Origin: Asaia bogorensis
GTDB taxonomy: Bacteria; Pseudomonadota; Alphaproteobacteria; Acetobacterales; Acetobacteraceae
Length of the DNA: 55,636 bases
Reading direction: 5' to 3'
Assembly (NCBI GenBank): GCA_945897825.1
Contig: CAMDGX010000023.1
Location: 1-55,636 of the forward strand
The position numbers and the translations under genes were made by a program. Below, in pieces: positions 7,581 to 50,862 of the stretch; position 1 is the first letter of the stretch, and each line of letters begins with the position of its first letter. The notes beneath the pieces were generated by a model. It had not been told where the DNA came from and did no database searches. It was given only the letters and a program-made list of their open reading frames with translations.

Positions 7581-8032
7581 GCATCACGGACCTGACCCAA
7601 CTCGGCCAACCAACCGCCCTGCCCGCCTCGCCCGAAGAAGCTGTGCTGGAGCGCGTCGCCAATCCGGCGCCCGGCCAGGCCTACCTGATCCGCTTCACCT
7701 GCCCCGAATTCACATCGCTCTGCCCACTGACCGGGCAGCCGGATTTCGCGCACATCGTCATCGACTACGTGCCCGGCGAATGGATCGTGGAGAGCAAGTC
7801 GCTGAAGCTGTACATGGGCAGCTTCCGCAACCACGGTGCCTTCCACGAGGCCTGCACGATGCAGATCGCCAGCCAACTGGTGGAACTGCTCTCGCCAACC
7901 TGGCTGCGCATCGGCGCCTACTGGTACCCGCGCGGCGGCATCCCGATCGATGTTTTCTGGCAAACCGGCGCGCCACCGGCAGGGTTGTGGGTGCCGGAGC
8001 AGGGCGTGCCGGGGTATCGGGGGCGAGGGTAG
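7577..8032 (+). CDS. queF: NADPH-dependent preQ0 reductase, short unimodular type
   Basis: A 151-residue member of the tunnelling-fold QueF family, reducing 7-cyano-7-deazaguanine (preQ0) to preQ1. The catalytic Cys and Asp are in [20 protein letters not shown]. The NADPH-binding [20 protein letters not shown] is also present, followed by [16 protein letters not shown]. It is a complete short-type enzyme. The ATG overlaps the tgt stop. The gene ends in GGG-CGA-GGG-TAG immediately followed by TAA, and these bases already belong to the conserved end of repeat copy A, so the last codons may have been set by that element. Confidence 0.94.
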
Positions 8033-8165
8033 TAAGCAAGATGTTCTTTTTTGAAAAAAAGAACCAAAAAATTTTCTTCACCTTTGCACGGCGCGCGCGG
8101 AACAGCGCGGCGCAAATGGATAAAAGTTTTTTTGCTTCTTTTTTTTCAAAAAAAGAAGACGCTTC
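8031..8165. repeat. AT-rich three-hairpin repeat element, copy A
   Basis: A palindromic element between queF and queG. It begins AGTAAGCAAG, overlapping the queF stop. Hairpin 1 is 8043-8064 (GTTCTTTTT/AAAAAGAAC, loop TGAA). The central stem pairs CAAAAAATTTTCTTCACCTTTGC (8065-8087) imperfectly with its partner at 8112-8134 around a GC-rich middle. Hairpin 3 is 8135-8158 (CTTCTTTTTT/AAAAAAGAAG, loop TTCA). Other copies are near 32.6, 48.35 and 50.7 kb. No coding capacity. Confidence 0.85.
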
Positions 8166-8171
8166 CCTCCC

Positions 8172-9197
8172 GTGCTAACCACCCACATCCGCGAGAAGGC
8201 ATTCGCCCTAGGCTTCGACGCCATCGGCTTCGCCCGCGCCGAGCTGGGGCCGGAGGCACGCACAAGGCTGCGGGACTTCCTGGATGCAGGCCACCACGGC
8301 AGCATGGGCTGGCTGGCCGAGCGCACGGACCAGCGCAGCCATCCGCAGGCGCTGTGGCCGGAGGCGCGTAGCGTGGTCTGCCTCGGTTTGAACTACGGCC
8401 CCGATGGCGATGCGCTGGCGAACCTGGAACGACCGACCGTCGGCAACATCTCGGTCTATGCCCGCCACCGCGACTACCACGACGTGGTGAAGGGCATGCT
8501 GAAGCACCTGGCCCAGTTCATCGTGGCCCGCGCCGGCGGTGGGGCGAAGGTGTTCGTCGACACCGCGCCGGTCATGGAAAAGCCGCTGGCGCAGCGGGCG
8601 GGCATGGGCTGGCAGGGCAAGCACACCAATCTGGTCTCCCGCCGCCACGGCTCCTGGCTGTTCCTGGGCGAGATCTACACCACGCTCGAGCTGCCGGCGG
8701 ACGATCCCGGCGCCGATCATTGCGGCAGTTGCCGCCGCTGCCTCGACGCCTGCCCGACCGATGCCTTCCCGGCACCCTACAGGTTGGATGCCACGCGCTG
8801 CATCTCCTACCTGACCATCGAATACGCGGGCCCCATCCCCGAGGCGCTGCGCCCGGCGATGGGCAACCGCATCTATGGTTGCGACGATTGCCTGGCCGTC
8901 TGCCCCTGGAACAGCTTCGCGAGCGCCTCGCGACACATGAAGCTCACCGCCCGCGACGACCTGCGCGCACCCGCTTTGGCGGAGCTTGCCGGGCTGGACG
9001 ATGCGGGGTTCCGCCGGATGTTCTCCGGCTCCCCGGTCAAGCGGATCGGGCGCAACCGCTTCGTCCGCAACGTCGCCATCGCCATCGGCAACAGCGCGGA
9101 ACCCGCGTTCATCCCCGCCGCAACGCAGCTGGCCGCCGATGCCGACCCGGTCGTCGCCGAGGCCGGGCAATGGGCGCTGGCGAGGCTTTCGTCATGA
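8172..9197 (+). CDS. queG: Epoxyqueuosine reductase (tRNA)
   Basis: A 341-residue cobalamin and iron-sulfur enzyme carrying out the last step of queuosine synthesis. The N-terminal B12-binding domain includes [18 protein letters not shown] and [26 protein letters not shown], with the conserved catalytic Asp in VDTAPV. Two ferredoxin-like 4Fe-4S motifs follow: [16 protein letters not shown] and [16 protein letters not shown]-like tail ends the protein. The likely start is GTG 8172, right after repeat copy A, with no good ribosome site; translation may rely on the upstream operon or on a promoter inside the element. The stop overlaps the next small gene. Confidence 0.94.
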
Positions 9198-9403
9198 GCT
9201 GGCTGGTCAAGCGCAGCTTCACCCTCGCCGGGCACCGCACGTCCATCGCGCTGGAGGCGGAGTTCTGGCAGGTGCTGGAGCAGATGGCGGAAGCCCGTTC
9301 GCGCAGCCTGTCCAGCCTGATCAGCGAGCTGGACGCCGAGCGCTCGGCGGATCGCCCGCTTGCGTCATTGTTGCGCGTTCACGCGCTGACTGGCGCGCGT
9401 TAA
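9194..9403 (+). CDS. Small ribbon-helix-helix domain protein
   Basis: A 69-residue protein: [20 protein letters not shown] forms the beta strand and first helix, and [20 protein letters not shown] the second helix. This is the pattern of the RHH_4 family common in alphaproteobacteria. Such proteins usually bind DNA as dimers, but no target is known here. The ATG overlaps the queG stop codon (ATGA), so it is co-translated with queG. Confidence 0.75.
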
Positions 9404-9488
9404 CGACCGCGCAAGCTTTACGACGGATTCATTCGTTGCAGGAGGCGGGAGTGGCCCGCCCCCGGGTAAAAGCCCGAAAGCGAACGCC

Positions 9489-9683
9489 ATGCCGAAGCGC
9501 CCGACCGCCCGCCAATCTGAAGCTGGTATCCTGCCCGCCGTTGCACCGATCAGCGCACTGGTGCTGTGCGACCGCCTGATCCAGGTCGCCCAGGATGCCG
9601 ACCGTGCCGGCTACAGCCAGACCGCCGCCCATCTCGTGGCGCTGGTGGACCACATGTTCGATGGCCCGCCCCAGCGCCACTGA
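9489..9683 (+). CDS. Small hypothetical protein
   Basis: A 64-residue frame with protein-like composition: a helical ALVLCDRLIQVAQDADRAGYSQTAAHLVALVDHMF segment after a basic leader. I do not recognise a function, though short helical proteins of this kind are frequent in Acetobacteraceae. The region before it (9404-9488) contains a GC hairpin and an AGGAGG that is about 35 bases from this ATG, so the start is uncertain. The gene ends 10 bases before the convergent cupin gene. Confidence 0.5.
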   Translation: MPKRPTARQSEAGILPAVAPISALVLCDRLIQVAQDADRAGYSQTAAHLVALVDHMFDGPPQRH

Positions 9684-9693
9684 GCCTCGGCGT

Positions 9694-10026
9694 TCAGCCC
9701 TCGTACACCGCGTAGAACTTGCGGACCGGCTTCACCGTCTCCCACACGCCCTTGAATCCCTTGGGGATCACGAAGGTGTCGCCGGCGACATAGGTTTCCG
9801 CATGGCCGCTCTCGTCGGTCAGGCGCACCTCGCCTTCCAGAAGGGTGCACAGCTCGTCCTTGGTGTAGTTGATCTCGCCGCGGCCGGGCTGCGCCGCCCA
9901 GAAGCCGGTGCGGAACCCGTCGCGGGCATACCAGGTCTTGCTGGTCATGCGCTTGTCCGCGTCGGGCGCCGTGGATGCATCGAAGCGCAGGCTGCGGATG
10001 GTGGTGGTCATGGCATCGTTGGGCAT
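9694..10026 (-). CDS. Small cupin-domain protein (ureidoglycine aminohydrolase-like cupin fold)
   Basis: A 110-residue single-cupin protein. The barrel core is ARDGFRTGFWAAQPGRGEINYTKDELCTLLEGEVRLTDESG and YVAGDTFVIPKGFKGVWE, resembling the DUF861 cupin_3 group. These lack the usual double-His metal site, and none is obvious here. No substrate can be assigned. An AGGAG lies just before the ATG. It follows gloA on the same strand with a gap of 57 bases and may be the last gene of a lpxI-gloA-cupin unit. Confidence 0.8.
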   Translation of the reverse strand: MPNDAMTTTIRSLRFDASTAPDADKRMTSKTWYARDGFRTGFWAAQPGRGEINYTKDELCTLLEGEVRLTDESGHAETYVAGDTFVIPKGFKGVWETVKPVRKFYAVYEG

Positions 10027-10083
10027 GGTGGGCTCCTTGCGCGATGAACCGGCCCGGCACCGCGCCGGACCGGCCGCATCATG

Positions 10084-10479
10084 TCACGAACGCTGGATCA
10101 GTTCGATCTTGTAGCCGTCGGGGTCCTCGACGAAGGCGATCACGGTGGTGCCGAACTTCACCGGGCCTGGCTCGCGGGTGATCTTGGCGCCTGCCGCGCG
10201 CAGCCTCTCGCACCCGGCGTAGACATCCGGCATGCCGATGGCGAGGTGGCCGAAGCCGGTGCCGAGGTCGTATTTGTCGACGCCGTAGTTGTAGGTCAGC
10301 TCCAGCTCGGTCTGCTCCGGCCGGTCGGCATAGCCCAGGAAGGCCAGGGTATACTTGCCGTCCGGCACGTCGCGGCGGCGCAGCTCCGCCATGCCGAACA
10401 TGTCGCAATAGAACTTCACGCTGCGGTCCAGGTCACCGACGCGCAGCATGGTGTGCAGGTAGCGGAAGCCCTCGGCCAT
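10084..10479 (-). CDS. gloA: Lactoylglutathione lyase (glyoxalase I)
   Basis: A 131-residue cytosolic enzyme that isomerises the methylglyoxal-glutathione hemithioacetal. RYLHTMLRVGDLDRSVKFYCDMFGM carries the first metal ligand (His), ELELTYNYGVDKYDLGTGFGHLAI the Glu and His, and FVEDPDGYKIELIQR the final Glu, the classic four-ligand GloA pattern. Length is typical of the bacterial nickel-type enzyme. An AGGAG precedes the ATG. Its start is two bases from the lpxI stop, so the two genes are co-transcribed. Confidence 0.92.
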   Translation of the reverse strand: MAEGFRYLHTMLRVGDLDRSVKFYCDMFGMAELRRRDVPDGKYTLAFLGYADRPEQTELELTYNYGVDKYDLGTGFGHLAIGMPDVYAGCERLRAAGAKITREPGPVKFGTTVIAFVEDPDGYKIELIQRS

Positions 10480-10481
10480 CG

Positions 10482-11372
10482 TCAGTCTCCTGTCGGGATG
10501 GGGTGGTCGGGATCAAAACCCAGAAGAAAGATGCCGGCTTCGTCGGCCAGTGCAATGGCCTGCTCGCGCTCGGCCAGCAGCGTGCCGCCCGCCTCGAAGG
10601 CGATTCCGCGCAACCCGGCAGTCGCGGCCGCGCGCACGGTCTGCGCGCCGATGGTCGGCAGGTCGGCGCGCCGCTCCTGCCCCGGCTTGACCAGTTTGAC
10701 CAGCACGCCGCCCGCGCCCTCCCGCCGCAACGCGCCACAGCGCGCCAGCATGGCATCGGTGCCCTCGATCGCCTCGACCGCCAGCACCAGCCCCAGCTGC
10801 ACCACGCAGCCCTGGCCGACATCCACCTCGCCCAGCCTGCGGGCGACCGCAACGCCGCGCGCGATGTCTGCCAGCGCCTGCGCGTCCGGCCCGGTGCGGG
10901 TCAGCAGCCCCTGCGGCCCCAGCACCTCGCGCATCACGTCGTGCGCGCCGATCACGTTGAAGCCCAGATCGCCCAGCACCTTGATCACCGCGCGCAGCAG
11001 CCCGTCATCGCCGGCGAAGGCCGCCCGGCCGATCCGCGCGAGCAGCTTCGCGCCCTCCGCATCGGGCCGCAGGTCGAAGAAGCCGGGCCGGCGCACCGTA
11101 CCCACCAGCACCAGGTCGCGCACGCCGTGGCCGCGCAGCAGCTCCACGATCCGCCCCGCCGCCCCGAACCGCGCCATCGCGTGCGGATAGGCAGCCAGCG
11201 CGGCCGGCTGGGCGAAGCCTTCCAGCCCCAGCAGGAACACACCCCGCCCCGCCGCCCGCGCCGCCTCCGCCACGCGCAACGGCATCGGCCCGCCCCCGGC
11301 GATGATGCCGAGCGTGCCCCGTCCCGCGCCGTCCTGACCTGCCGCGTCACCGTCGCGTGCTTCGTTGCCCAT
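10482..11372 (-). CDS. lpxI: UDP-2,3-diacylglucosamine pyrophosphatase LpxI
   Basis: A 296-residue protein of the LpxI (DUF1009) family, which hydrolyses UDP-2,3-diacylglucosamine to lipid X in lipid A synthesis and replaces LpxH in alphaproteobacteria. Signature blocks are LGIIAGGGPMPLRVAEAARAAG, LVLVGTVRRPGFFDLRPD, GDDGLLRAVIKVLGDLGFNVIGAHDV and KPGQERRADLPTIGAQTV, the last holding the catalytic Asp. I choose ATG 11372, preceded by AGGAAGG at good spacing; the open frame extends further but is not protein-like. Unusually for alphaproteobacteria it is not beside lpxA or lpxB; the partner is gloA. Confidence 0.93.
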   Translation of the reverse strand: MGNEARDGDAAGQDGAGRGTLGIIAGGGPMPLRVAEAARAAGRGVFLLGLEGFAQPAALAAYPHAMARFGAAGRIVELLRGHGVRDLVLVGTVRRPGFFDLRPDAEGAKLLARIGRAAFAGDDGLLRAVIKVLGDLGFNVIGAHDVMREVLGPQGLLTRTGPDAQALADIARGVAVARRLGEVDVGQGCVVQLGLVLAVEAIEGTDAMLARCGALRREGAGGVLVKLVKPGQERRADLPTIGAQTVRAAATAGLRGIAFEAGGTLLAEREQAIALADEAGIFLLGFDPDHPIPTGD

Positions 11373-11484
11373 GGCGCCTTCCTGCCGCATGCCCCGCGCA
11401 AGCGCCAGCCCCCACCGCCCATGCGGTTGACGTGCCCGCACGCCCTTGCCACGGTCGTCACGACACACCAGCGCATTGGATTCC

Positions 11485-12528
11485 ATGTCCTCCACCACCA
11501 CAACCTCGTTCGCCGGCACGGCCCGCACCCTTCTGCCGGGCATCCTACTGTGCGTGGCGGTCACCGCCGCTGCGATGGCGCTGACCTGGCTGGAGGTCCA
11601 GCTGCTCGGCCGAGCCTGGGTGGAAGGCATCGTCATCGCCATCCTGCTCGGAACGCTCATCCGCAGCGTCTGGACGCCGCCCAAGTCACTGCAGGCCGGG
11701 ATCGGCTATGCCGGCAAGCAGATGCTCGAATTCGCCGTGGTGCTGCTCGGCGCCTCGGTCAGCGCCGTGACCATCGTCGCCGCCGGTCCGGTGCTGATGC
11801 TCAGCGTGATCCTCGTCGTCGCCGGCGCGCTGACGGCCAGCTTCCTGATCGGCCGCGCGCTCGGCCTGCCGGCGCGCATGGCAACCCTGATCGCCAGCGG
11901 CAACGCCATCTGCGGCAACTCCGCCATCGCCGCCGTCGCCCCGGTGATCGGCGCGAGCCAGGCCGACGTCGCCGCCTCCATCGCCTTCACCGCAGTGCTC
12001 GGCGTCGCCACCGTCATCACACTGCCGCTGGTGATGGATCTGCTGGGCCTCACGATCACGCAATACGGCGCGCTGGCCGGCATGACGGTGTACGCAGTTC
12101 CGCAGGTGCTCGCGGCCACGGTGCCGGTCGGGCAGGAAGCGGTCGAGATGGGCACGCTAGTCAAGCTCGTGCGCGTGCTGATGCTCGGCCCGGTCTGCGT
12201 GGTGCTGGCGCTGATCGTCCACCGGATCGGTCAGAAGGCCGGCGGCACGGCGAAGCTCGGCTTCTCCAAGATGGTGCCGTGGTTCATCATCGGCTTCCTC
12301 GGGATGCTGCTGGTGCGATCGCTGGGGCTGATCCCCGACATCCTGCTCGACCCCGTGAGGCTCGCGGCCGGCGCCCTGACCACCATCGCCATGGCCGCCC
12401 TCGGCCTGGGTGTCGACGTGCGCGTGGTCGCCCGTGCCGGCGGGCGCGTGACGGCAGCGGTCACCTGCTCGCTGGTGATGCTCGCGGTGATCAGCGTCGT
12501 GCTCATCCGGGTGCTGGGCGTCGCCTGA
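11485..12528 (+). CDS. YeiH/UPF0324-family membrane permease (putative sulfate exporter type)
   Basis: A 347-residue inner-membrane protein with about ten hydrophobic helices. The family pattern is visible in LLGRAWVEGIVIAILLGTLIRSVW, LEFAVVLLGASVSAVTI, LIASGNAICGNSAIAAVAPVIGA and GALAGMTVYAVPQVLAATVPVG, as in YeiH. Relatives have been linked to sulfate or sulfonate-derived anion export, but the substrate is not established. The gene is divergent from lpxI, with 112 bases between them that may hold both promoters. ATG 11485 is preferred over an earlier in-frame ATG at 11446. Confidence 0.85.
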   Translation: MSSTTTTSFAGTARTLLPGILLCVAVTAAAMALTWLEVQLLGRAWVEGIVIAILLGTLIRSVWTPPKSLQAGIGYAGKQMLEFAVVLLGASVSAVTIVAAGPVLMLSVILVVAGALTASFLIGRALGLPARMATLIASGNAICGNSAIAAVAPVIGASQADVAASIAFTAVLGVATVITLPLVMDLLGLTITQYGALAGMTVYAVPQVLAATVPVGQEAVEMGTLVKLVRVLMLGPVCVVLALIVHRIGQKAGGTAKLGFSKMVPWFIIGFLGMLLVRSLGLIPDILLDPVRLAAGALTTIAMAALGLGVDVRVVARAGGRVTAAVTCSLVMLAVISVVLIRVLGVA

Positions 12529-12610
12529 GGCGCGGCGCAAACGACAGGCTGCCTTTCCCGCGCGATCCTGTATGATCTCCTCAAACAAACGATTCCGCAG
12601 GGGGCTGAAC

Positions 12611-13834
12611 ATGACCGAAACCAATTCCCGTGGCCTGGGCCGGCTCACGCGTCGCGGGGCCCTGGTCGCCGGCGCCGCCACGCTGGCAATGCCACGCATC
12701 GGCGGGGCGCAACCCGCCGCGGTCAAGATCGGCGTCATCCATCCGGTGACCGGCGCGCTCGCCTTCTCCGGCTCGCAGTGCCGCCTGGGCGCCACCATGG
12801 CGATCGCCGACATCAATGCGGCCGGCGGCATCAAGGCGATGGGCGGCGCGAAGCTGGAGGCGTTGCTCGGCGACGCGCAAGGCCGCGCCGAGATCGCAGC
12901 ATCCCTGGTCGACCAGATGGCCGAGGCCGGTGCCTCCGGCTTCACCGGCTGCTTCGCCTCCCCGCTCGGGCTTGCGGCCACCACGGCGGCGGCGAAATAC
13001 AACATCCCGTTCTCGATCGACTCGGGCATCGTGGACGCCATCACCACGCGCGGCCTCAAGAACGTCTTCCGCCTGTTCCCCAACCTGTCGATGACCATCG
13101 GCGGCGCCATGCCGGCACTCGATGCCATCAACAAGAAGGCCGGCTCCCCGGCCAAGACCGCCGTCGTGGTGCATGAGGACGGCGAGTTCGGCACCAACAC
13201 CGCCAAGCAGCAGGCCGCGGCGCTTGCCGGCATCGGCATCAAGGCGCTGGAACTGCTGCCGCACGCCACGCCGACGCGCGACTTCACCAACATCGTGTTG
13301 AAGATCAAGGCGCTGAAGCCCGATCTGGTGATGATCACCAACTACCAGAACGAATACGCCCTGCTCTCGCGCACACTGGTGCAGCAGCGCGTCGACCTCG
13401 TCGGCACCTATTCCATCCTCGGCGGCGGCTTCAACCTGAAATTCGCCAAGGAGGCCCCGACCGTCGCCGAGAACATGATGGACTTCAACCACTGGTACAG
13501 CGTGAAGGACCCCCGCTCGGCCGCCTTCCGCAAGCGCGTGGAAGACAGCAACAACATCATCACCTTCGAGGTGATCTTCGGCTATTTCGCCATCAAGCTG
13601 CTCGCCGATGCCTGGGAGCGTGCCGGAAGCTCGGACAAGGAAAAGACGATCGAGGCGCTGAACACCTCCACCTTCAGCGACCACTTCATGCCCTACGGCC
13701 CGACCAAGTTCGTCAACGGCCAGAACACCGGCAGCCAGGCCGTGGCACTCCAGATACAGAAGGGCGACATGGAGGTGGTGTGGCCCGACCCCTTCGCGAG
13801 CAAGCCGCCCGTCTTCCCGCGGCCGAAGGCCTAG
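12611..13834 (+). CDS. livK: Periplasmic substrate-binding protein of a branched-chain amino acid-type ABC transporter
   Basis: A 407-residue type I binding protein. The N-terminus has a twin-arginine-like leader (RLTRRGALVAGAATLAMPRIGGAQP), so it is probably exported folded to the periplasm. The mature part starts VKIGVIHPVTGALAFSG, the usual Leu/Ile/Val-family ligand-binding entry, and continues with DINAAGGIKAMGGAKLE and GEFGTNTAKQQAAAL. A GGGGG lies near the ATG. It heads an operon with two permeases, two ATPases and an M20 peptidase. The real ligand could be an amino acid, an amide or a short peptide; the family is broad. Confidence 0.88.
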   Translation: MTETNSRGLGRLTRRGALVAGAATLAMPRIGGAQPAAVKIGVIHPVTGALAFSGSQCRLGATMAIADINAAGGIKAMGGAKLEALLGDAQGRAEIAASLVDQMAEAGASGFTGCFASPLGLAATTAAAKYNIPFSIDSGIVDAITTRGLKNVFRLFPNLSMTIGGAMPALDAINKKAGSPAKTAVVVHEDGEFGTNTAKQQAAALAGIGIKALELLPHATPTRDFTNIVLKIKALKPDLVMITNYQNEYALLSRTLVQQRVDLVGTYSILGGGFNLKFAKEAPTVAENMMDFNHWYSVKDPRSAAFRKRVEDSNNIITFEVIFGYFAIKLLADAWERAGSSDKEKTIEALNTSTFSDHFMPYGPTKFVNGQNTGSQAVALQIQKGDMEVVWPDPFASKPPVFPRPKA

Positions 13835-14765: not shown

Positions 14766-14774
14766 GAGGCGCGC

Positions 14775-30853: not shown

Positions 30854-32629
30854 ATGCCCGCACCAGACCCGATCACCGCCGAGCTCTTCCGCAACGCCGT
30901 CGTCGCCATCGGCGACGAGATGGCACTGACCATCTACCGCGCCGCCTATTCCGGCGTGCTCAAGAACAACATGGACTACTCGACGGCGGTCTGCGACGCG
31001 AAGGGCCGCCTGCTCGCCCAGGGCCTGTCGCTCCCCGGCCATCTCTGCTCCATCCCGATCGCCCTGCAATCCTGCCTGCGCCATTTCGGCGACGACATCG
31101 CCGAGGGCGACATCCTGTGCATGAACGACCCCTACGACGGCGGCATGCACCTGCCCGACATCTTCGTCTTCCGCCCGATCTTCGCCGAGGGCACCATCGT
31201 CGCCTGGGCCGCCACCATCTGCCACCACACCGACGTGGGCGGCCGCGTCGCCGGCTCCAACGCATCGGACAGCACCGAGATCTACGCCGAGGGCCTGCGC
31301 ATCCCGCCGGTCAAGCTGCACGAGCGCGGCGTGCCCAACACCACCCTGCTGCGCATCCTCGACCGCAACGTCCGCGTCCCAGCCCGCGTCATGGGCGACC
31401 TGCGCGCCCAGCTCGCCGCCTGCGAAATCGCCGCCCGCGGCGTGCGCGACCTCCTCGCCCGCCACGGCACCGCGGGCTTCGCCGCCCTGTCCGAGGAGAC
31501 GATGAACCACTCCGAGCGCCTCGTCCGCGCCTGCCTGGCCGAACTGCCCGACGGCGAGGCCACCTTCACCGACTGGATCGACGACGACCAGATCGACGCC
31601 GGCAAGCCCATCAAGCTCGTCTGCACCATCCGCAAGCGCGGCGACCACATGGTGATGGACTGGACCGGCTCCTCCCCCCAGGTGAAGGGCGCCATCAACA
31701 ACACCTGGTCCTACACCGCCGCGGCCAGCTTCACCGCCGCCAAGTGCATCCTGCGCGAGAACATGCCGAACAACGACGGCGTGTTCCGCTGCATCGAGGT
31801 GATCGCCCCCCCCGGCACCATCACCAACGGCGTGCTCCCCGCCGCCTGCGCCGCCCGCGGCCTCACCGGCTTCCGCTGCGCCGACGCCGCCTTTGGCGCA
31901 CTCGCCATGCTCTACCCCGACCGCGTCTTCGCCGCGTCCGACGGCGGCAACACCGGCATCACCATCGGCGGCTACGATGAGAACCGGAAACCCTTCATCT
32001 ATGTCGACTTCCTCTCCGGCGCCTGGGGCGCCCGCCCCTGGGCCGACGGGCTGGAAGGCAACACCAACATGTTCGCCAACATGGCCAGCTTCTCCATCGA
32101 GGTGATCGAGGCCGAGAACCCGCTCGAAGTCCTGGACTACGAAATGGTCCCCGACACCGCCGGTCCCGGCCGCTTCCGCGGCGGCGTCTCGCTGCGCCGC
32201 ACCTGGCGCATGCTGGAAGGCGAAGGCATGCTCCAGGTGCGCGCCGACCGCGCCACCCACCGCCCCTACGGCCTGTGGGGCGGCGGCCCCGGCGCCCCCA
32301 GCCGCAACCTCCTCAACCCCGGCCCCGGCGAGCAACCCCTACACGCCAAGCTCACCATGACGCTCCGCCGCGGCGAGGTCTTCCGCCACGACCTCCCCGG
32401 CGCCGGCGGCTGGGGCTGCCCCCTCTCCCGCGACCTCGACGCCGTGGCGAAGGACCTGCGCGACGGCCTCGTCACCATCGAGGGCGCCGCCCGCGACTAC
32501 GGCGTGGTCGCATCCGGCGATCCCCCAGTGATCGACATCGCCGCCACCGAAGCCCTGCGCGCGAGGCTGCGCGCCGAACGACCAAGGGCACCCGACGTCG
32601 CCTGGCAGCCGTTGCATCAAAGTCAGTAA
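30854..32629 (+). CDS. hyuB: Hydantoinase B/oxoprolinase-family subunit
   Basis: A 591-residue subunit. ITAELFRNAVVAIGDEMALTIYRAAYSGVLKNNMDYSTAVCDAKGRLLAQG is the HyuB start, GDILCMNDPYDGGMHLPDIFVFRPIF holds the metal/phosphate region, and the family ends in GGWGCPLSRD. With HyuA it opens a cyclic amide (hydantoin, 5-oxoproline or similar) using ATP. Its stop TAA lies inside AGTAAG, the start of repeat copy B, which separates it from hyuA by 149 bases. Confidence 0.92.
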   Translation: MPAPDPITAELFRNAVVAIGDEMALTIYRAAYSGVLKNNMDYSTAVCDAKGRLLAQGLSLPGHLCSIPIALQSCLRHFGDDIAEGDILCMNDPYDGGMHLPDIFVFRPIFAEGTIVAWAATICHHTDVGGRVAGSNASDSTEIYAEGLRIPPVKLHERGVPNTTLLRILDRNVRVPARVMGDLRAQLAACEIAARGVRDLLARHGTAGFAALSEETMNHSERLVRACLAELPDGEATFTDWIDDDQIDAGKPIKLVCTIRKRGDHMVMDWTGSSPQVKGAINNTWSYTAAASFTAAKCILRENMPNNDGVFRCIEVIAPPGTITNGVLPAACAARGLTGFRCADAAFGALAMLYPDRVFAASDGGNTGITIGGYDENRKPFIYVDFLSGAWGARPWADGLEGNTNMFANMASFSIEVIEAENPLEVLDYEMVPDTAGPGRFRGGVSLRRTWRMLEGEGMLQVRADRATHRPYGLWGGGPGAPSRNLLNPGPGEQPLHAKLTMTLRRGEVFRHDLPGAGGWGCPLSRDLDAVAKDLRDGLVTIEGAARDYGVVASGDPPVIDIAATEALRARLRAERPRAPDVAWQPLHQSQ

Positions 32630-32765
32630 GAATGTTCTTTTTTGAAAAAAAGAACCAAAAAACTTTCTTCCATTTGCCCCGTGCCAGTCGGACAAGCCGA
32701 GCGCAAATGGACAAAGTTTTTTTGCTTCTTTTTGTTCACAAAAAGAAGAGCCTTCCTTCCTCCTG
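32625..32765. repeat. AT-rich three-hairpin repeat element, copy B
   Basis: Same element as at 8031. It starts AGTAAG over the hyuB stop. Hairpin 1 is 32634-32655 (loop TGAA). The central stem CCATTTGC/GCAAATGG, extended by CAAAAAACTTTC-type arms, surrounds a GC-rich middle. Hairpin 3 is 32725-32748 (CTTCTTTTTG/CAAAAAGAAG, loop TTCA). The element ends about 13 bases before the hyuA start. Confidence 0.85.
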
Positions 32766-41045: not shown

Positions 41046-41056
41046 CGGGTCTTCCT

Positions 41057-43812: not shown

Positions 43813-44799
43813 ATGAAGGTTGCGATCCTGGGCGGCGGCGGTTTCCTCGGGCGGCGCGTGGCCGAACGGCTCGCTTCCGCCGGCACGCTGGGCGGGCGGG
43901 CGATCACCGGCATGACGCTGTTCGACCTCCAGGCCCCCCCTGCCCTGTCGGCCGGCTTCCAGGTCGCGACGCTGGGCGGCGACATCGCCGAGCTGCCGGA
44001 GGCGGCGATCCCGCCGGGCACCGAGGTGGTGTTCCACCTCGCCGCCGTGGTCAGCGCGGCGGCGGAGGCCGACTACGACCTCGGCCGGCGCGTCAACCTG
44101 CGCGGCACCGACGCGGTGATCGATGCCTGCCGCCGGCTGGTCGGTGCCGGGGGCAAGGCGCCCCGCGTGGTGTTCACCAGCAGCATCGCCAGCTTCTCCG
44201 GCGGGCAGGCGGCGATGCTGGACGACGGGGCGAAGCAGGTGCCGGCCAATTCCTACGGCACCCAGAAGGCCGCCGCCGAGCTGCTGCTGGCCGATGCCAC
44301 GCGGCGCGGCTTCATGGACGCGGTGTCGCTGCGGCTGCCGACGATCATCGTGCGGCCGGGGCGGCCGAACAAGGCGGCGAGCAGCTTCTTCTCCTCGATC
44401 GTGCGCGAGCCGCTGCTCGGGCTGGAAGCCGAGCTGCCGGTGCCGGACGACTTCAAGGTGTGGGTCGGCAGCCCGAACTCGGCGGTCGGCTGGCTGATCC
44501 AGGCCGCCGCGATGGACACCGCGCCGATGGGGCTGGACCGCAGCCTGAACCTGCCGGGCCTGTCGGTGACCGTCGGGCAGATCATCGGGGCGCTGGAGCA
44601 GGTGCGCCAGGGTGCCTCGGCGCTGGTGGCGCGCAAGCCGGACAAGGCGATCGCGGAGATCGTCGGCGGCTGGCCGGCCGGGTTCACGGCGTCGCGGGCG
44701 CGGGCGCTGGGCTTCGCGCCGAACGAGGGGCTGGTGGAGCTGGTGCGCGCCTTCGTGGCCGACGATCTGGAGGCCACCCGCCGCGACCGCGGCATGTGA
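43813..44799 (+). CDS. denD: NAD-dependent epimerase/dehydratase, DenD (D-erythronate dehydrogenase)-like
   Basis: A 328-residue extended SDR. The NAD-binding start is VAILGGGGFLGRRVAERL, LAAVVSAAAEADYDLGRRVNLRGTDAVIDAC follows, and the catalytic Ser/Tyr/Lys are in FTSSIASF and SYGTQKAAAELLL. RLPTIIVRPGRPNKAASSFFSSIVREPL is the DenD/nucleoside-diphosphate-sugar epimerase-like signature. The D-erythronate substrate is inferred from family resemblance. ATG 43813 follows a GGAGG at ideal spacing. The last codons belong to a 20-base direct repeat. Confidence 0.85.
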   Translation: MKVAILGGGGFLGRRVAERLASAGTLGGRAITGMTLFDLQAPPALSAGFQVATLGGDIAELPEAAIPPGTEVVFHLAAVVSAAAEADYDLGRRVNLRGTDAVIDACRRLVGAGGKAPRVVFTSSIASFSGGQAAMLDDGAKQVPANSYGTQKAAAELLLADATRRGFMDAVSLRLPTIIVRPGRPNKAASSFFSSIVREPLLGLEAELPVPDDFKVWVGSPNSAVGWLIQAAAMDTAPMGLDRSLNLPGLSVTVGQIIGALEQVRQGASALVARKPDKAIAEIVGGWPAGFTASRARALGFAPNEGLVELVRAFVADDLEATRRDRGM

Positions 44800-44823
44800 T
44801 GATCCGCCGCGACCGCGGCATGT
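44778..44823 (+). repeat. Tandem 20-base duplication at the denD stop
   Basis: CCGCCGCGACCGCGGCATGT occurs at 44778-44797 and again at 44804-44823, with GATGAT between (period 26). The first copy contains the last codons of denD and its TGA; the second is a non-coding remnant. This looks like a recent tandem slip. Confidence 0.85.
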
Positions 44824-45031
44824 AACGATGCCGCGCATTGCTGGCCCGCGCCAGTCGCGGGGAAATTCCGCCAACGTTACCTGCATTTAAGCCGTATTCG
44901 CGCGATAGCCGGTTGTCGCGGCCGCTGGTGCGGCCCATGAATGCGGGTGAACGGCGCCACGCCCTTTCGGGGGCCGGGCGCGCAGGCGAAGGTCTGGTGG
45001 GTTGCGGATTGCCGGGTTTCCAGGAGCTGGC

Positions 45032-46942
45032 GTGATCAGCCGGCGGATTGCCTGGGGAAGGCGCAACGTCGGGCGGCATTTGTCGCCACGGCGCCTGATC
45101 CGTTATCTGCGCCCGCGCCCTGGCGCGGATGAAGACGGGGCGCCGCCGCGGGTGCGGCGCGGGTTTGGGTTCTGGATCAGCCATGCACCGGCCACCGCGC
45201 GCGCCCTGGTGCGTGCCGACGAGATGTGGCTGTCGGTGCTGGCGGCCTTTGTCGGCGCGTTCTCCGGCCTGTGCGTCATCGCGATGAGTGCCGTGACGCA
45301 GTGGATGCACATGGTGCTCTACGGCATCGGCCCGCATGACCGGCTGTCCTCGCAGGTCGAGGTCGGGCTGTGGAACGCGCTGCTGGTGCCGACGCTGGGC
45401 GGGCTGGTGCTCGGGTTATCGGGGTTGGCGCTGGCGAAGTGGTGGCCGCGGCGGGCGGTCGACGCGATCGAGGCCAATGCGCTGCATGGCGGGCGCATGT
45501 CGGTGAATGCGAGCCTTGTCGTCGTGGCGCAGACGATGTGGTCTAACGGCGTCGGTGCCTCGGTGGGGCTCGAGGCGGGCTATACCCAGATCGGCGCGGC
45601 GCTGGCCTCGCGGCTGGGCCGGGCGTTCCGGGTGCGGCGCAACGATCTGCGGCTGCTGGTCGGCTGCGGCGCGGCGGGCGCCATCGCGGCGGCGTTCAAC
45701 GCGCCGCTGGCAGGCGCCTTCTATGCGTTCGAGCTGGTGATCGGCACCTATACGCTGGCGGCGCTGGCGCCGGTGATCATTGCCTCGATCGTCGCGGTGT
45801 CGATCTCGCGGGCGCTGATGCCGCACGAGTTTGCCTTCGACCTGCGGCTGCCGCTGGCGATCGATCCGGTGAACTACGTTCCGATCCTGTTGCTCGGCGT
45901 GGTCTGCGCGCTGGCCGGGATCGCGATCATGCGCGGCGTGACGGTGACGGAGGACATCTTCCGCCGCTCGGGCGTGCCGGTGTGGCTGCGCCCGGCGATC
46001 GGCGGGCTGGCGGTGGGGATGCTGGCGCTGGTGACGCCGCAGGTGCTGTCGGCGGGGCATGGGGCGCTCCAGGTGGACATCGATGCGCCGTTCACGCTGG
46101 GGGCGCTGCTGCTGCTGATCCTGCTGAAGTCGGTGGCTTCGGCGATCTCGCTGGGCTCGGGGTTTCGCGGCGGGTTGTTCTTTGCCTCGCTGTTCCTGGG
46201 TGCGTTGGTGGGCAAGGCGTTCGCGGCCGCGCTGGCCGAGGTGTCGGCCGTGTATGCGATGCCGAGCGTGGTGGCGGCGCTGGTGGGCATGAGTGCCTTG
46301 GCGGTGGCGATCGTGGGCGGGCCGTTGACGATGGCGTTCCTGGCGCTGGAGACGACGGGGTCGCTGCCGCTGACGGTGGCGGTGCTGGCGGCTTCGGTGG
46401 TGTCGTCGCTGACGGTGCGGCGGACCTTCGGGTATTCGTTTGCGACGTGGCGGTTCCACCTGCGCGGGGAGGCGATCCGCAGTGCCGTCGATATCGGGTG
46501 GATGCGCAACCTGACGGTCGGGCGGATGATGCGGCGCGAGCTGCGCACGGTGCGCGGGGACACGACGCTGGCGAGCTTCCGGCGCGACTTCGCGCTGGGG
46601 GTGGCGGACCGGGTGGTGGTGGTGGACGATGCCGGGAAATACGCGGGCATCGTGCTGGTGGCGGAGGCGCATACGCAGGCGAACGAGGTGGCGGGCAAGG
46701 GGGCGGTGGGCAAGGGAACCGGGACGGTGATGGACCTGCTGCACAGCGAGGAGGACATGCTGACGCCGCAGATGACGATCAAGGAGGCGGTGGCGCTGTT
46801 CGAGGCGGCGGAGGCGGATGCGCTGGCGGTGGTGGACAGCGTGGAAAACCGCAAGGTGATCGGGTTGCTGACGGAGCAGTATGCGCTGCGGCGCTACAGC
46901 GAGGAGCTGGAGCGGCGGCGGCGGGAATTGTCGGGGGAGTAG
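45032..46942 (+). CDS. ClC-type chloride channel/antiporter with C-terminal CBS domains
   Basis: A 636-residue membrane protein. The ClC filter segments are visible in divergent form: NGVGASVGLEAGYTQIGAALAS with the gating Glu (usually GSGGSVGREGP), GAAGAIAAAFNAPLAGAFYAFE, and LGSGFRGGLFFASLFLGALVGK (usually GSGxxGGxFxPxL). A pair of CBS domains (about residues 500-630, TVGRMMRRELRTVRGDTTLASF and DMLTPQMTIKEAVALFEAAEAD) follows in the cytoplasm. The start is GTG 45032 after CCAGGAG; an in-frame TTG at 45002 is not favoured. The AhpD-like gene starts five bases downstream. Confidence 0.9.
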   Translation: MISRRIAWGRRNVGRHLSPRRLIRYLRPRPGADEDGAPPRVRRGFGFWISHAPATARALVRADEMWLSVLAAFVGAFSGLCVIAMSAVTQWMHMVLYGIGPHDRLSSQVEVGLWNALLVPTLGGLVLGLSGLALAKWWPRRAVDAIEANALHGGRMSVNASLVVVAQTMWSNGVGASVGLEAGYTQIGAALASRLGRAFRVRRNDLRLLVGCGAAGAIAAAFNAPLAGAFYAFELVIGTYTLAALAPVIIASIVAVSISRALMPHEFAFDLRLPLAIDPVNYVPILLLGVVCALAGIAIMRGVTVTEDIFRRSGVPVWLRPAIGGLAVGMLALVTPQVLSAGHGALQVDIDAPFTLGALLLLILLKSVASAISLGSGFRGGLFFASLFLGALVGKAFAAALAEVSAVYAMPSVVAALVGMSALAVAIVGGPLTMAFLALETTGSLPLTVAVLAASVVSSLTVRRTFGYSFATWRFHLRGEAIRSAVDIGWMRNLTVGRMMRRELRTVRGDTTLASFRRDFALGVADRVVVVDDAGKYAGIVLVAEAHTQANEVAGKGAVGKGTGTVMDLLHSEEDMLTPQMTIKEAVALFEAAEADALAVVDSVENRKVIGLLTEQYALRRYSEELERRRRELSGE

Positions 46943-46946
46943 GGCG

Positions 46947-47339
46947 ATGGTCAGGCTGGTCGAATACGCGGAGGCGTCGGCGGAGGCGCGGGCGGTGTTC
47001 GAGGACATCGCCGCGGTGCGGGGCATCCGGCCGGAGGAGGTGAACAACGTGTGGAAGGCGATGGCCGTCCATCCGGCGAACATGCGGCGGTTCTGGGAGC
47101 AGGTGAAGGCGGTGATGGGGCCGGGGACGCTGGATCCGGTGACCAAGGAGCTGATCTACCTGGCGGTGTCGATCAGCCAGCAATGCGAGTATTGCGTGGC
47201 CTCGCATACGGTGGCGGCACGGCGGAAGGGGGCGAGCGAGGACATGCTGGCCGAGATGATCGCGGTGGTGGGCCTGGCGGTGGAGGGGAACCGGCTGGCC
47301 TCGGCGTACCAGGTGCCGGTGGACGCGGCGTTCCGCTAG
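46947..47339 (+). CDS. AhpD-like/carboxymuconolactone decarboxylase-family protein
   Basis: A 130-residue all-helical protein. The redox motif is CEYCVASHTVAARRKG with two Cys two residues apart and the following His, as in AhpD peroxidase-like proteins. NNVWKAMAVHPANMRRFWEQV and MLAEMIAVVGLAVEGNRLASAY complete the family pattern. It could act as a peroxide or disulphide reductase partner. ATG 46947 is five bases from the ClC stop, so it is in the same transcript. Confidence 0.9.
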   Translation: MVRLVEYAEASAEARAVFEDIAAVRGIRPEEVNNVWKAMAVHPANMRRFWEQVKAVMGPGTLDPVTKELIYLAVSISQQCEYCVASHTVAARRKGASEDMLAEMIAVVGLAVEGNRLASAYQVPVDAAFR

Positions 47340-47381
47340 TTTGTCTTGATATCGTAATAATTAAGGCGCGGCAGGGCTTGG

Positions 47382-48005
47382 TCAGGCCCGGCCGTGTTTT
47401 TTGGCGGCCCGCGCGGCGGCGATGATGTTGGGCGGCAGGCCGAGGCGGGGGTCGGTGAGGCGCCAGGGGCGTTCGGGACGGGGTTTCGGCGCGCGCGGTT
47501 TTCTTGGGCGCGGGGGGAGTGTGAGCCAGTCGGGCTGCTTGACGCCGAGGGCCTGGCAGAGGGGGCGCAGCAGGCGGCCGGCTTGCGGGGCGTCCTGCAC
47601 GAACTGACGCGCTTCTGTTTCGTTGTGCAGGATGTGCGACAGGAACCCGGCGGGCGGGGCGGCTTCCGGGATGCGGTGGTTCACCCAGGCGAAGGCGCGC
47701 GGGAGACGGATTTCGGGCGTCGGCCGGGGCTTTGACGGGCGCGGCTTGCGGGGGGTGGGGAGGGTGCCGGTGCGCCATCTGTCGTGCAGGGCGTGGAGGC
47801 GGGTGAGCAGGCGGTCGAGGCGGAGCCAGAGCAGGGTCCAGACGGGCTCGGGGAGGAGGGGACGCTTCGGGGGTGGAACGATAGCGAGAAAGACCCTCTG
47901 GCCGAGCCATACGGGCTGCGGCGGACGCAGCTGTCGCGTCAGCTGGGTGCCGATGGCGGCGCGCAGCATCACGACGATGCGGGTGAGGTGTTCCATGAGG
48001 GTCAT
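47382..48005 (-). CDS. Hypothetical protein, Pro/Arg-rich, Acetobacteraceae-type
   Basis: A 207-residue protein of unknown function. The first 60 residues are amphipathic (MEHLTRIVVMLRAAIGTQLTRQLR), then come RLDRLLTRLHALHDRWR and an Arg/Pro/Lys-rich linker, then a conserved-looking block with FAWVNHRIPEAAPPAGFLSHILHNETEARQFVQDAPQAGRLLRPLCQALG. I recall similar proteins, often in several copies per genome, in Acetobacteraceae. No catalytic motif is clear. A perfect palindrome lies eight bases before the ATG. It may be autoregulated or mobile-element associated. Confidence 0.7.
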   Translation of the reverse strand: MTLMEHLTRIVVMLRAAIGTQLTRQLRPPQPVWLGQRVFLAIVPPPKRPLLPEPVWTLLWLRLDRLLTRLHALHDRWRTGTLPTPRKPRPSKPRPTPEIRLPRAFAWVNHRIPEAAPPAGFLSHILHNETEARQFVQDAPQAGRLLRPLCQALGVKQPDWLTLPPRPRKPRAPKPRPERPWRLTDPRLGLPPNIIAAARAAKKHGRA

Positions 48006-48012
48006 GGGGGGT

Positions 48013-48033
48013 ATCTAACATTGTTTGTTAGAT
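48013..48033. promoter_or_regulatory. Perfect inverted repeat just upstream of the hypothetical gene
   Basis: ATCTAACA and TGTTAGAT are separated by TTGTT. The palindrome ends eight bases before the ATG at 48005 (minus strand). The AT-rich sequence in GC-rich surroundings suggests an operator. It overlaps the region where a ribosome or RNA polymerase would sit, so it could repress the gene when bound. Confidence 0.65.
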
Positions 48034-48035
48034 GA

Positions 48036-48344
48036 TGCAAGGGGTGGGTGAGGAATTTTTTCTGGCGATGCGGGGTTTGGGTGGGTGCCTTGGGGGTGGG
48101 GAGAAGGAAGAAAGAAAGGAAGGAAGGAAGGAAGCAAACAAGAAGAAGATTCAACACGGAGGCACAGAGGCACGGAGGAGCAAGGCAAGGGAGAAGGAAG
48201 GAAGCAGGATTCACATAGAGGCAGAGAGGGTAGAGGACGCCGGGAGAGGCTATGGTTTGCCTTTGGTGTTCGGGTGGTGGAGAGAAAGGAAGCGTGGATT
48301 CCTCACTTCGTTCGGAATGACGGTGGTTAGATGGGGGGATGAAT
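48036..48344. repeat. Purine-rich low-complexity zone with GAAG microsatellite and ACACGGAGGCACAGAGG motif
   Basis: There is no convincing gene in this 300-base gap. From 48104 to 48150 runs a GGAA/GAAG microsatellite, then AGAAGAAGATTC. At about 48151-48180 lies TTCAACACGGAGGCACAGAGG, which resembles a repeat I recall from many bacterial genomes. The rest is purine-biased. It replaces the left half of repeat copy C. Confidence 0.75.
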
Positions 48345-48393
48345 AAAGTCTTTTTGCTTCTTTTTCTTCAGAAAAAGAAGGCGCTTGCTTACT
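48345..48393. repeat. AT-rich repeat element, half copy C
   Basis: Only the right part of the element is present: AAAGTCTTTTTG, hairpin 3 at 48357-48380 (CTTCTTTTTC/GAAAAAGAAG, loop TTCA), then GCGCTTGCTTACT. Read on the minus strand the end is AGTAAGCAAGCGC and contains the bisC stop TAA at 48389-48391. Confidence 0.85.
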
Positions 48394-50686
48394 CTTCTTC
48401 GATCCTGGGCGGCGTGTGGACTTTGATGGGTGGGAGGGGGGCGGTCCATTTTTCGAGGCGGACGAGGCAGGACTGGGCGATGGGGCCTTGGCCGAGTTTG
48501 CTGGTGGGGGCGTCGCGGGTGAGGACGTTGGGGTTGCCGTGGACGCAGAGGCTGCCGGGGGTGCCGGGCTCCAGCGGGTCGAGCCAGGCGCCGGTGGGCA
48601 GGACGACGACGCCGGGGAGCAGGCCGTCGGTGAGGGTGGCGCCGGCGAGGCAGGCGCCGCGGGCGTTGAAGACGCGGACGATGTCGCCGTGGGCGATGTT
48701 ACGTTCGGCGGCGTCGGCGGTGTGGATCAGGATGGCTTCGCGGCCGTGGATTTTCGACGCCAGCGAGGTGCGGGCCATGTCCATCTGGCTGTGCAGGCGG
48801 GTGGCGGGCTGGACGCTGAGGAGGTGGAGTTCGTCGGGGGCGGCGGTGCCGAGGTATTCCTGGGGCGCGCGCCAGACCGGGTGGCCGGGGCAGTCGTCGT
48901 AGGCGAAGCCGGCGATGCGTTCGGAGAAGAGTTCGATTTTTCCCGACGGGGTGTTGAGCGGCGCGGCGTCGGGGGTGGCGCGGAAGCTGCTGAAGGCGAC
49001 GATGGGGGTTTCGGGTTCGGGGACTTCGACCATGCCTTGCGCCCAGAAGGTGTCGAAGTCGGGCAGGGTGACGTCCATGCGGGCGGCGGCGTCGCGGGCG
49101 CGGCCGTACATGGCGCGCAGCCAGGCGTTCTCGTCGCGCTGCTGGGTGTAGCGGGGGCGGACGCCGAGGGCGTCGGCGATGTCGGCCATGTAGTCGAACT
49201 CGTTTCGGGCCTGGGCGACCGGCGCGACGAGTTGCTTCATCGCCAGGATGTGGCGGTCGAGCGAGCCGGCGCCGATGTCGTTGCGCTCCATGGTGGTGGT
49301 GGCGGGCAGGACGATGTCGGCGTGGCGGGCGATGGGGGTCCACCAGGGTTCGCTGACGATGATCGTTTCGGGCTTGGCCCAGGCGCGCAGCAGGCGGTTG
49401 ATGTCCTGGTGGTGGTGGAAGGGGTTGCCGCCGGCCCACCAGACGAGGCGGGTGTCGGGATAGGTGATGCGGCGGCCGTTCCAGTCGACCTCGTCGCCGG
49501 GGCGTTCGAGCATGTCGGTGATGCGGGCGACGGGGATGAAGGAGCGGGCGGGGTTGGGCAGCGACGGGAGGCTGACGGAGGGGATCATGTGGCGGGCGCC
49601 GCCCATGCCGTTCTCGCTGCCGAGGCCGAAGGTGAAGCCGCGGCCGGGGAGGCCGATGCCGCCGAGCATCGATGCCAGGGCGGTGAGCATCCAGTAGGGC
49701 TGTTCGCCGGCCTCGGCGCGCTGGAGGGACCAGGCGGCGGTGAGCATGTTGGGCGCGGCGGCGAGGTCGCGGGCGAGTTGGGCGATTTGCGCCGCGGGGA
49801 GGCCGGTTTCGCGGACGGCCCATTCGGGGGTTTTGGGGGTGTTGTCGGTTTCGCCGAGGATGTAGGCGCGGAGGTGCGCGTAGCCGGTGGTGTGGGTGGC
49901 GAGGAAGGCCTGGTCGGCGTGGCCCTCGGTGATGAGGACGTGGGCGAGGGCGAGCATCAGGGCGGTGTCGGTGGTGGGGCGGATGGGCCACCACTCGGCT
50001 TGGATGTCGTCCGGAATGTCGGCGCGGATGGGGGAGATGTTGACGATGCGGATGCCGGCCTGGGCCGCGCGGTGGAGCCAGGTGCCCATTTCGTGGCGGG
50101 CGCCGCCGCCGGCGTTGACGTGGCCGTTGCGCAGGGTGATGCCGCCGAAGCAGACGAGGATCTTCGCGTGGGCGATGATGTCGCGCCAGGCGATGACGGG
50201 ACGGTCGACGATTTCCATGCCGCCGACGATGTGGGGCATGAGCGTCATGCCGGCGGCGTAGGAGTAGTTGGTGACCTGGCCGGTGTAGCCGCCGGCCGAC
50301 GCCAGCAGGCGGTGGAGCTGGGACTGGGCGTGGTGGAAGCGGCCGGCGCTGGCCCAGCCGTAGGAGCCGCCGAAGATGCTGGCGGGGCCGTGCGTGTCGC
50401 GGACCCTTGCGAGTTCCGAGGCGACGAGGGTGGTGGCGTGGTCCCAGGTGAGGGGGACGAAGGGGTCGGCGCCGCGGGGGGTGCCGCCGGCGCGGTCGCC
50501 TTGGAGCCAGGATTTGCGGGCGTGGGGGCGGTCGATGCGGAGCGGGGAATGCAGCGCGTCGGGCATGCCCTGGAGGATGGGGGGCGGGGCGGGGTCGGCC
50601 GGGGGGGGGGTGATGCGCGTGAGGCGGCCGTGTTCGATGGTGGCGGTGAAGGCGCCCCAGTGGGCGGCGTGGTGCAGCTCGGTCAT
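48389..50686 (-). CDS. bisC: Molybdopterin oxidoreductase of the biotin sulfoxide/TMAO reductase group
   Basis: A 765-residue molybdoenzyme. It starts MTELHHAAHWGAFTATIEHGRL, without Tat signal and without the N-terminal Cys cluster, so it is cytosolic and lacks the 4Fe-4S centre, as in BisC and TorZ-like enzymes. RPHARKSWLQGDRAGGTPRG and SIFGGSYGWASAGRFHHAQSQLHRLL are family blocks. The Mo ligand Ser is probably in TGQVTNYSYAAGM. GHVNAGGGARHEMGTWLHRA binds the cofactor. It probably reduces a sulfoxide or N-oxide. The C-terminus EEE is directly followed by a TAA that lies in repeat copy C, and the promoter side faces copy D. Confidence 0.88.
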   Translation of the reverse strand: MTELHHAAHWGAFTATIEHGRLTRITPPPADPAPPPILQGMPDALHSPLRIDRPHARKSWLQGDRAGGTPRGADPFVPLTWDHATTLVASELARVRDTHGPASIFGGSYGWASAGRFHHAQSQLHRLLASAGGYTGQVTNYSYAAGMTLMPHIVGGMEIVDRPVIAWRDIIAHAKILVCFGGITLRNGHVNAGGGARHEMGTWLHRAAQAGIRIVNISPIRADIPDDIQAEWWPIRPTTDTALMLALAHVLITEGHADQAFLATHTTGYAHLRAYILGETDNTPKTPEWAVRETGLPAAQIAQLARDLAAAPNMLTAAWSLQRAEAGEQPYWMLTALASMLGGIGLPGRGFTFGLGSENGMGGARHMIPSVSLPSLPNPARSFIPVARITDMLERPGDEVDWNGRRITYPDTRLVWWAGGNPFHHHQDINRLLRAWAKPETIIVSEPWWTPIARHADIVLPATTTMERNDIGAGSLDRHILAMKQLVAPVAQARNEFDYMADIADALGVRPRYTQQRDENAWLRAMYGRARDAAARMDVTLPDFDTFWAQGMVEVPEPETPIVAFSSFRATPDAAPLNTPSGKIELFSERIAGFAYDDCPGHPVWRAPQEYLGTAAPDELHLLSVQPATRLHSQMDMARTSLASKIHGREAILIHTADAAERNIAHGDIVRVFNARGACLAGATLTDGLLPGVVVLPTGAWLDPLEPGTPGSLCVHGNPNVLTRDAPTSKLGQGPIAQSCLVRLEKWTAPLPPIKVHTPPRIEEE

Positions 50687-50710
50687 GGGTGGGAATTTGG
50701 CGGTTCGACA

Positions 50711-50862
50711 GGAAGGAAGGAAGGGGTTCTTTTTTGAAAAAAAGAACCAAAAAACTTTTGTCCATTTGCTTGGGGGTTTCTGGGCGGATACGCGGGCGCG
50801 AATGGATGGAAGTCTTTTTGCTTCTTTTTCTTCAGAAAAAGAAGATTCTTGCTTGCTTCCTT
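50711..50862. repeat. AT-rich three-hairpin repeat element, copy D
   Basis: A full copy between the divergent bisC and aminotransferase genes. GAAGGAAGGAAGG precedes hairpin 1 at 50726-50747 (GTTCTTTTT/AAAAAGAAC, loop TGAA). The central stem pairs 50748-50769 with 50796-50820. Hairpin 3 is 50821-50844 (CTTCTTTTTC/GAAAAAGAAG, loop TTCA), followed by ATTCTTGCTTGCTTCC. Unlike the other copies it is at 5' ends of genes. Confidence 0.85.

Follow-up and report, generated by a model that had tools for sequence, protein, structure and literature searches.

The window analyzed in this work, a 55,636-nt stretch of Asaia bogorensis DNA (contig CAMDGX010000023.1), contains an A/T-rich palindromic element repeated in three full copies (A, B and C) and one half copy (D). 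The question that arises is what kind of element this is and why its hairpins have been preserved. An initial annotation had described these four copies, all of which were found again, and had attributed the pattern to selection on the folded form rather than to A/T drift; this view is supported, as covariation of the stem persists in a much larger set. The explanation that best accounts for the results obtained, and to which we give an even chance, is that of a non-autonomous mobile repeat made of paired units able to form a triplex, some of whose copies the host would retain for a function at the 3′ ends of genes. Three features are absent from that annotation: a linker that mirrors the stem, the position next to stop codons, and mobility.

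Within the window, a pattern for the third hairpin of the element (hairpin 3) allowing up to three mismatches matches at the four places alone (8 rows, both strands), and in none of 100 shuffles. As annotated, the hairpin 3 stem has 10 bp in all four copies, and its closing pair is T-A in copy A, G-C in copy B and C-G in copies C and D. The copies are not unique to the window: the hairpin pattern TTGCTTCTTTTTNTTCANAAAAAGAAG gives 316 exact matches in the 4.93-Mb genome of the strain, its reversed control giving none. In the larger set the inner pair of the stem is C-G, G-C or T-A, the outer pair is C-G or G-C, and stem bodies range from 4 to 7 bp.

Outside this genome, the hairpin is present in 44 of 200 genomes of the family, distributed in 26 of 102 genera, with a maximum of 456 copies (genome G119). 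A draw of 385 genomes of the class, of which five belong to the family, yields two matches, the own genome and G056; none of the 380 outside the family carries the hairpin. Among the matches listed, which correspond to at least 112 stretches, carriers include Gluconacetobacter, Asaia, Neokomagataea, Acidiphilium, Roseomonas, Pseudoroseomonas, Rhodovarius and Rhodovastum, names that point to Acetobacteraceae as the family. A plasmid search with copy B retrieved two records, both from Pseudoroseomonas cervicalis (78–80% identity). No named family had been recognized in the initial annotation, and this still holds: only transfer-messenger RNA (tmRNA) models pass the Rfam gathering score in the whole window, copy C gives only sub-threshold Rfam matches, and a search of titles and abstract openings, with subscription papers mostly outside its coverage, retrieved no description of this repeat family.

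For the anatomy of the element we used the window plus 30 stretches of the same genome (645,484 bases), in which a fuzzy pattern yields 163 units. A full element measures about 150 bp and comprises two inverted units flanking a variable, self-complementary core. Read outward, each unit consists of a pyrimidine linker, a G and a hairpin of 8–11 bp with a TNCA loop. Three types predominate: type I (GTCTTTTTG-CTTCTTTTTC-TTCA-GAAAAAGAAG, 54 exact), type II (GTTTTTTG-GTTCTTTTT-TTCA-AAAAAGAAC, 49 exact) and type III (GTTTTTTTG-CTTCTTTTTG-TTCA-CAAAAAGAAG, 29 exact), the exactness of types I and III being inflated because the stretches were picked for exact matches. Once 13 partners missed by the pattern were rescued, the sample holds 85 full and 6 half elements. 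Pairing is selective: the 72 strict full elements are II-I (51), II-III (11), III-III (6), I-III (3) or III-I (1), and none is I-I or II-II. The flanks are AAGN-rich at the left and CTTN-rich at the right in this genus, and weaker in some other genera; the element can be read in both directions as an A tract, a core hairpin and a T tract. The unit type may also expand by lineage, as in genome G178 of the family 131 matches to a variant with a TTTCT stem body compare with 47 to the type I/III pattern, which suggests lineage-specific bursts of a single unit type.

The core varies in sequence between copies, yet it folds (mean z of −3.21 for 70 cores, 59 of them below −1 and none above 1). At core positions 10–24 none of 2000 permutations reaches the match between the two arms of the same element (n = 51), and at positions 12–22 8 of 2000 do (n = 63). 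Two features of the annotated three-hairpin form had to be revised. Hairpin 1 is present, and corresponds to the inverted unit of the hairpin 3 kind, with a 9-bp stem and its TTCA loop on the opposite strand. When minimum free energy RNA folds were computed, copy C gave separate hairpins on both strands, and copies A and B, folded for the plus strand only, each gave one long hairpin; hence the three-hairpin form is, in these predictions, one of two competing folds. A palindrome of double-stranded DNA bound by a dimer is probably not what is conserved, since the spacing of the half-sites shifts with stems of 8, 9, 10 or 11 bp and the loop is constant.

Within the units, linker and stem also covary. 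The linker equals T followed by the reversed stem body, C being read as C, and T or G as T. This mirror rule is exact in 456 of 473 units with perfect stems and TTCA, TCCA or TACA loops (162/169 in the own genome, 34/35 in the genus, 46/46 at family loci, 5/6 at loci with RAYT-like genes, and 209/217 at named loci, a set fetched partly by a pattern in which the linker length was fixed and the C/T position and the inner pair were free). It is obeyed by 25 of 40 distinct unit types, the maximum in 10,000 permutations being 16. In units with 6-bp bodies and 7-nt linkers, the linker base is C for 174 of 175 inner C-G pairs (T in one), T for 98 of 98 G-C pairs and T for 13 of 13 T-A pairs. Units able to discriminate a mirror from a direct copy follow the mirror in 188 of 194 cases; upon adding later loci and any TNCA loop, in 191 of 201, with seven body types represented. 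Not a single one of these 201 is a direct copy, and a linker that pairs with the purine arm as a copy of the stem was rejected.

Because unit types share ancestry, the units do not count as independent events, and the number of body types is a better measure. Stem bodies TTTCT and TCTTT were also searched for in the 200 genomes of the family, leaving the linker free, with only the G before the stem fixed. TTTCT bodies appear in 23 genomes from 14 genera, and 28 of the 32 units fetched carry the predicted TTCTTT linker; two of the four misses retain TCTTT. One new TCTTT-bodied unit and two earlier ones all have the predicted TTTTCT linker. Bodies of unlike length and composition (TTTCT, TCTTT, and TTTTCC and TTTTTCC with one unit each) obey the rule.

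Judged from its sequence, this covariation is the code of an intrastrand triplex: a pyrimidine block, a purine block and a third block in mirror register lie on one strand. We infer that the linker would double back and occupy the major groove, where, as a third strand running parallel to the purine arm, it would form T.A-T and C.G-C triads, and that the complementary strand would spell a purine-motif triplex. According to the classes defined in the available part of PMC4666352, the outward strand would be a pyrimidine motif of class IV, which both DNA and RNA can form, and the inward strand would belong to class II, which only DNA can form. The same text reports that bacterial intrastrand triplex motifs were found by pattern search, that one of them forms in vitro, and that their role is open (PMC4666352). 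Single-base stem mismatches on the outward strand are G.T in 6 and A.C in 2 of 18 cases, too few to choose RNA; the selected molecule may be RNA or single-stranded DNA. Comparative covariation of a third strand, affecting its length as well as its bases, belongs to the type of evidence used to establish RNA helices. In many genera, a change in the stem is accompanied by its mirror change in the third strand, and it may be, with a probability somewhat short of even, that evolution holds a triple helix in place and that the triplex-clamped hairpin is a movable, two-way gene-end device with hundreds of copies in some genomes. Such covariation would make the triplex question testable in culturable relatives, as the unit occurs in strains of Gluconacetobacter, Acidiphilium, Roseomonas and Rhodovarius.

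We analyzed next the position of the element with respect to genes, which were called with a codon-usage caller made for this analysis. Full elements lie between tandem (43), convergent (34) or divergent (5) genes, with 3 at stretch edges, and overlap with called genes does not exceed 15 bases for any element (count made before the 13 partners were rescued). Their stop-facing ends are within 21 bp of the stop codon in 106 of 111 cases (median 8), and start-facing ends lie within that distance in 8 of 53 (median 30). All six half copies face a stop codon, five of them within 21 bp, numbers that are too small to lean on. Of the gaps that reach 60 bp or more, those between convergent genes are occupied in 37 of 59 cases, tandem ones in 46 of 180 and divergent ones in 5 of 85 (Fisher p of 7e-14 and 9e-5 for convergent and tandem versus divergent gaps); as the stretches were chosen for carrying copies, occupancy is likely above the genome-wide value and only the contrast between gap classes is meant. 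Stop codons near element ends are TAA in 49, TAG in 35 and TGA in 20 cases (before partner rescue), versus TGA 348, TAG 166 and TAA 76 among the called genes as a whole, which looks as though the stop came from the AAGN flank. The finding also marks a mobile repeat adjoining stop codons.

Comparison with relatives indicates that the element moves, as sites that it occupies here are empty in some of them. Copy A, located between the QueF-like and QueG genes, is absent from all six relatives aligned on both sides, where match coordinates leave 23–45 bp versus 154–175 in the own genome. Copy B is absent from the three relatives aligned, and copy C from six, another subtype being present in G119. 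Counterparts of copy D are of type III in G033, G171 and G202 and of an 8-bp form in G119 and G201; G203 and G200 have none. Three further sites were compared. Site S2 (L109:13125), where the element directly follows a TGA, is empty in seven of seven relatives. Site S1 (L109:7354) is empty in four, bears an element in opposite orientation in G200 and other DNA in G119. By eye, no clear target duplication is seen at S1 or S2. Site S3 (L109:18358) is occupied in seven species and empty in G119. At S3 the two units have mean pairwise identities of 1.00 and 0.96 and the flanking genes of 0.87 and 0.75, against 0.44 in the core, values that, from sequence comparison, point to selection or homogenization acting on the units in place.

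The explanation that we favour, a mobile repeat retained at gene ends, would then read as follows. A non-autonomous repeat of acetic-acid bacteria, with two inverted units and a hypervariable hairpin core, would settle within a few bases past stop codons, in some cases seemingly supplying part of the stop, and some of its copies would later be retained to serve the host at the 3′ ends of genes. The likeliest role would be to end or insulate transcription, or to protect the transcript 3′ end, in both directions. Several results weigh against it. Core arms at positions 0–12 match without clear excess over permutation (149/2000, n = 71). Exceptions to the mirror rule amount to 17 of the 473 units, and since these rare cases comprise 15 of the 25 linker/body pairs, only 10 pairs obey it. 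Four to seven triads make a short triplex. Units are canonical to the same extent whether they face a stop (87/111) or a start (41/53), with 8 and 6 discordant tandem pairs. Copy C lies between divergent genes, constraint in place was measured at a single shared site, and at S1 and S2 the element parts genes that relatives keep only 7–11 bp from each other, a place in which strong termination would be expected to do harm. A simple scan for terminators (a G + C-rich stem followed by a T run) between positions 32500 and 51500 found 7, versus 7.2 in shuffles (standard deviation of 2.9), and matched just one element hairpin, hairpin 3 of copy C. Moreover, the available portion of PMC4666352 describes a related E. 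coli motif as forming a triplex in vitro as a single strand and not as a duplex, with none detectable in vivo, and as devoid of terminator activity.

Empty sites and copies restricted to the own genome would also be expected from a purely selfish REPIN-like element whose folded ends are read by some transposase, its position after stop codons coming from lethality elsewhere or from targeting. Opposite orientations at one site in two species, the patchy range and the inverted pairs of unlike units fit it as well. Nevertheless, transposition alone is insufficient for units that are 96–100% identical over the seven species at S3 with a core at 44%, although homogenization between copies is possible, and the own genome lacks a Y1 transposase; we consider this reading possible but rather unlikely. 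An element acting as DNA deserves similar consideration. BIMEs (bacterial interspersed mosaic elements) of E. coli have been reported to absorb supercoils or to bind nucleoid protein or gyrase, and a cruciform or triplex DNA at gene ends could do the same. The mirror code is legible on either strand, the purine-motif triplex requires DNA, as stated in the part of PMC4666352 available, stop- and start-facing units are equally conserved, and convergent gaps are enriched; the excess of G.T over A.C mismatches is a weak hint of RNA from very few cases and speaks against a DNA-level role, which on balance we regard as unlikely.

Ordinary bidirectional intrinsic terminators would explain the position after stops, the succession of A tract, core hairpin and T tract from either side, and the folded cores, the mirror pattern being then a by-product of common descent of a few unit types. 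That the terminator scan stays at chance level, and that the unlike bodies listed above obey the mirror rule, which a fixed T tract would not predict, make such a family improbable. The end units are, in addition, nearly fixed across genera and also occur between genes that almost touch in relatives, unlike those of such terminators. Finally, inverted pairs, intergenic location and high copy number are what a classical GTAG-tagged repetitive extragenic palindrome (REP) moved by a RAYT (REP-associated tyrosine transposase) would show. A fixed GTAG or CGTC tag at the hairpin foot was found in no case, GTAG being present in certain flanks, where it contributes to a stop codon, and at no fixed place, and the tag is taken as refuted. 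The Y1_Tnp domain, typical of RAYT and the only partner transposase sought, has no match in the own genome. Y1_Tnp is present in 24 of the 200 family genomes; among the 16 loci fetched, four hold a unit, none has its gene bracketed by units, and two of the three closely inspected bear other palindromes of their own. The RAYT link was thus rejected, and this last reading is barely credible. Near the RAYT-like (Y1_Tnp) genes of L146 (G019) and L148 (G110) we observed own palindromes of the CCCGCATC type; in L146, a unit of the present family sits between the stop codon of the preceding gene and the RAYT-like gene.

Set beside known systems, the element can be classed as a new form of a known kind, a paired, A/T-rich repeat of the intrastrand-triplex type, mobile and bound to gene ends, with BoxC/PIT and REP/BIME as its nearest kin. 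With BoxC/PIT/TM-ECO it shares a pyrimidine block, a purine block and a mirror-image third block on one strand, copies scattered between genes, and inverted pairs that lie close together and combine unlike types, with type A joined to type B in five of five E. coli MG1655 pairs in the accessible text of PMC4666352. From the same text, BoxC is G/C-rich (CCCTCNCCC...) and shows no fixed gene distance, lying oftener upstream (PMC4666352), whereas the units described here are A/T-rich, TNCA-looped and have a stop-facing median of 8 bp, and their third block covaries with the stem across genera. The BoxC consensus CCCTCNCCC N3-6 GGGNGAGGG N3 GGGNGAGGG is not matched by these A/T-rich units. Loose BoxC-like sites (up to four substitutions) number 5 in the sampled 645 kb, one adjoining a half copy. 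BoxC was rejected as the partner of half copies, as it accompanies 1 of the 19 units initially classed as half. Loose G/C-rich BoxC/TM-ECO-like motifs lie in the own genome at L121:650-684 and L118:1376-1410, one of them beside a half copy. With REP/BIME/REPIN, the element shares short palindromes set in inverted orientation on either side of a spacer and outside genes (here 85 full elements and 6 halves), mostly between convergent or same-direction genes, as far as PMC3733652 is accessible; it differs in lacking a GTAG/CGTC tag and a RAYT in the genome, and in its mirror-repeat linker and hypervariable core. Intrinsic terminators are likewise found at gene 3′ ends. As in a miniature inverted-repeat transposable element, the length is about 150 bp, the ends are inverted and relatives have empty sites; unlike in such an element, no clear target duplication was seen and no partner transposase was found, Y1_Tnp being the only one sought.

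The copies in the window illustrate these classes. In copy A, an AAGN-rich left flank (8031–8042) overlaps and follows the stop codon of the QueF-like gene (7577–8032). A type II-like left unit, with its outward strand on the minus strand (8043–8072; hairpin 8043–8064 plus linker), differs from type II by one base, and is followed by the variable core (8073–8125) and by a right unit on the plus strand (8126–8158) with linker 8126–8134 and hairpin 8135–8158, whose inner pair is T-A. Next to copy B, the stop codon of a hydantoinase B-like gene ends at 32629; the copy comprises a minus-strand type II unit (32634–32663; hairpin 32634–32655 plus linker), a core (32664–32715) and a plus-strand type III unit (32716–32748; linker 32716–32724, hairpin 32725–32748, inner pair G-C). 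Copy C comprises a minus-strand type II unit (50726–50755; hairpin 50726–50747 plus linker), a core (50756–50811), a plus-strand type I unit (50812–50844; linker 50812–50820, hairpin 50821–50844, inner pair C-G) and a CTTN-rich right flank (50845–50862). Half copy D is a plus-strand type I unit (48348–48380, hairpin 48357–48380), 8 bp off the stop codon of a minus-strand gene (48389–50686). Beside it, a different palindromic repeat of the kind GGATTCCTCACTTCGTTCGGAATGACGG occupies positions 48296–48323 in place of the second unit; a GGATTCCTCACTTCGTTCGGAATGACGG-like sequence also lies beside another half copy, in L006 (the same place as L120).

Two further features of the window were noted. 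A called gene of 207 aa on the minus strand (47382–48005) has no Pfam match at an E value of 0.001. The region from 1264 to 1574, on the plus strand, corresponds to a permuted alphaproteobacterial tmRNA gene, with a strong Rfam match.

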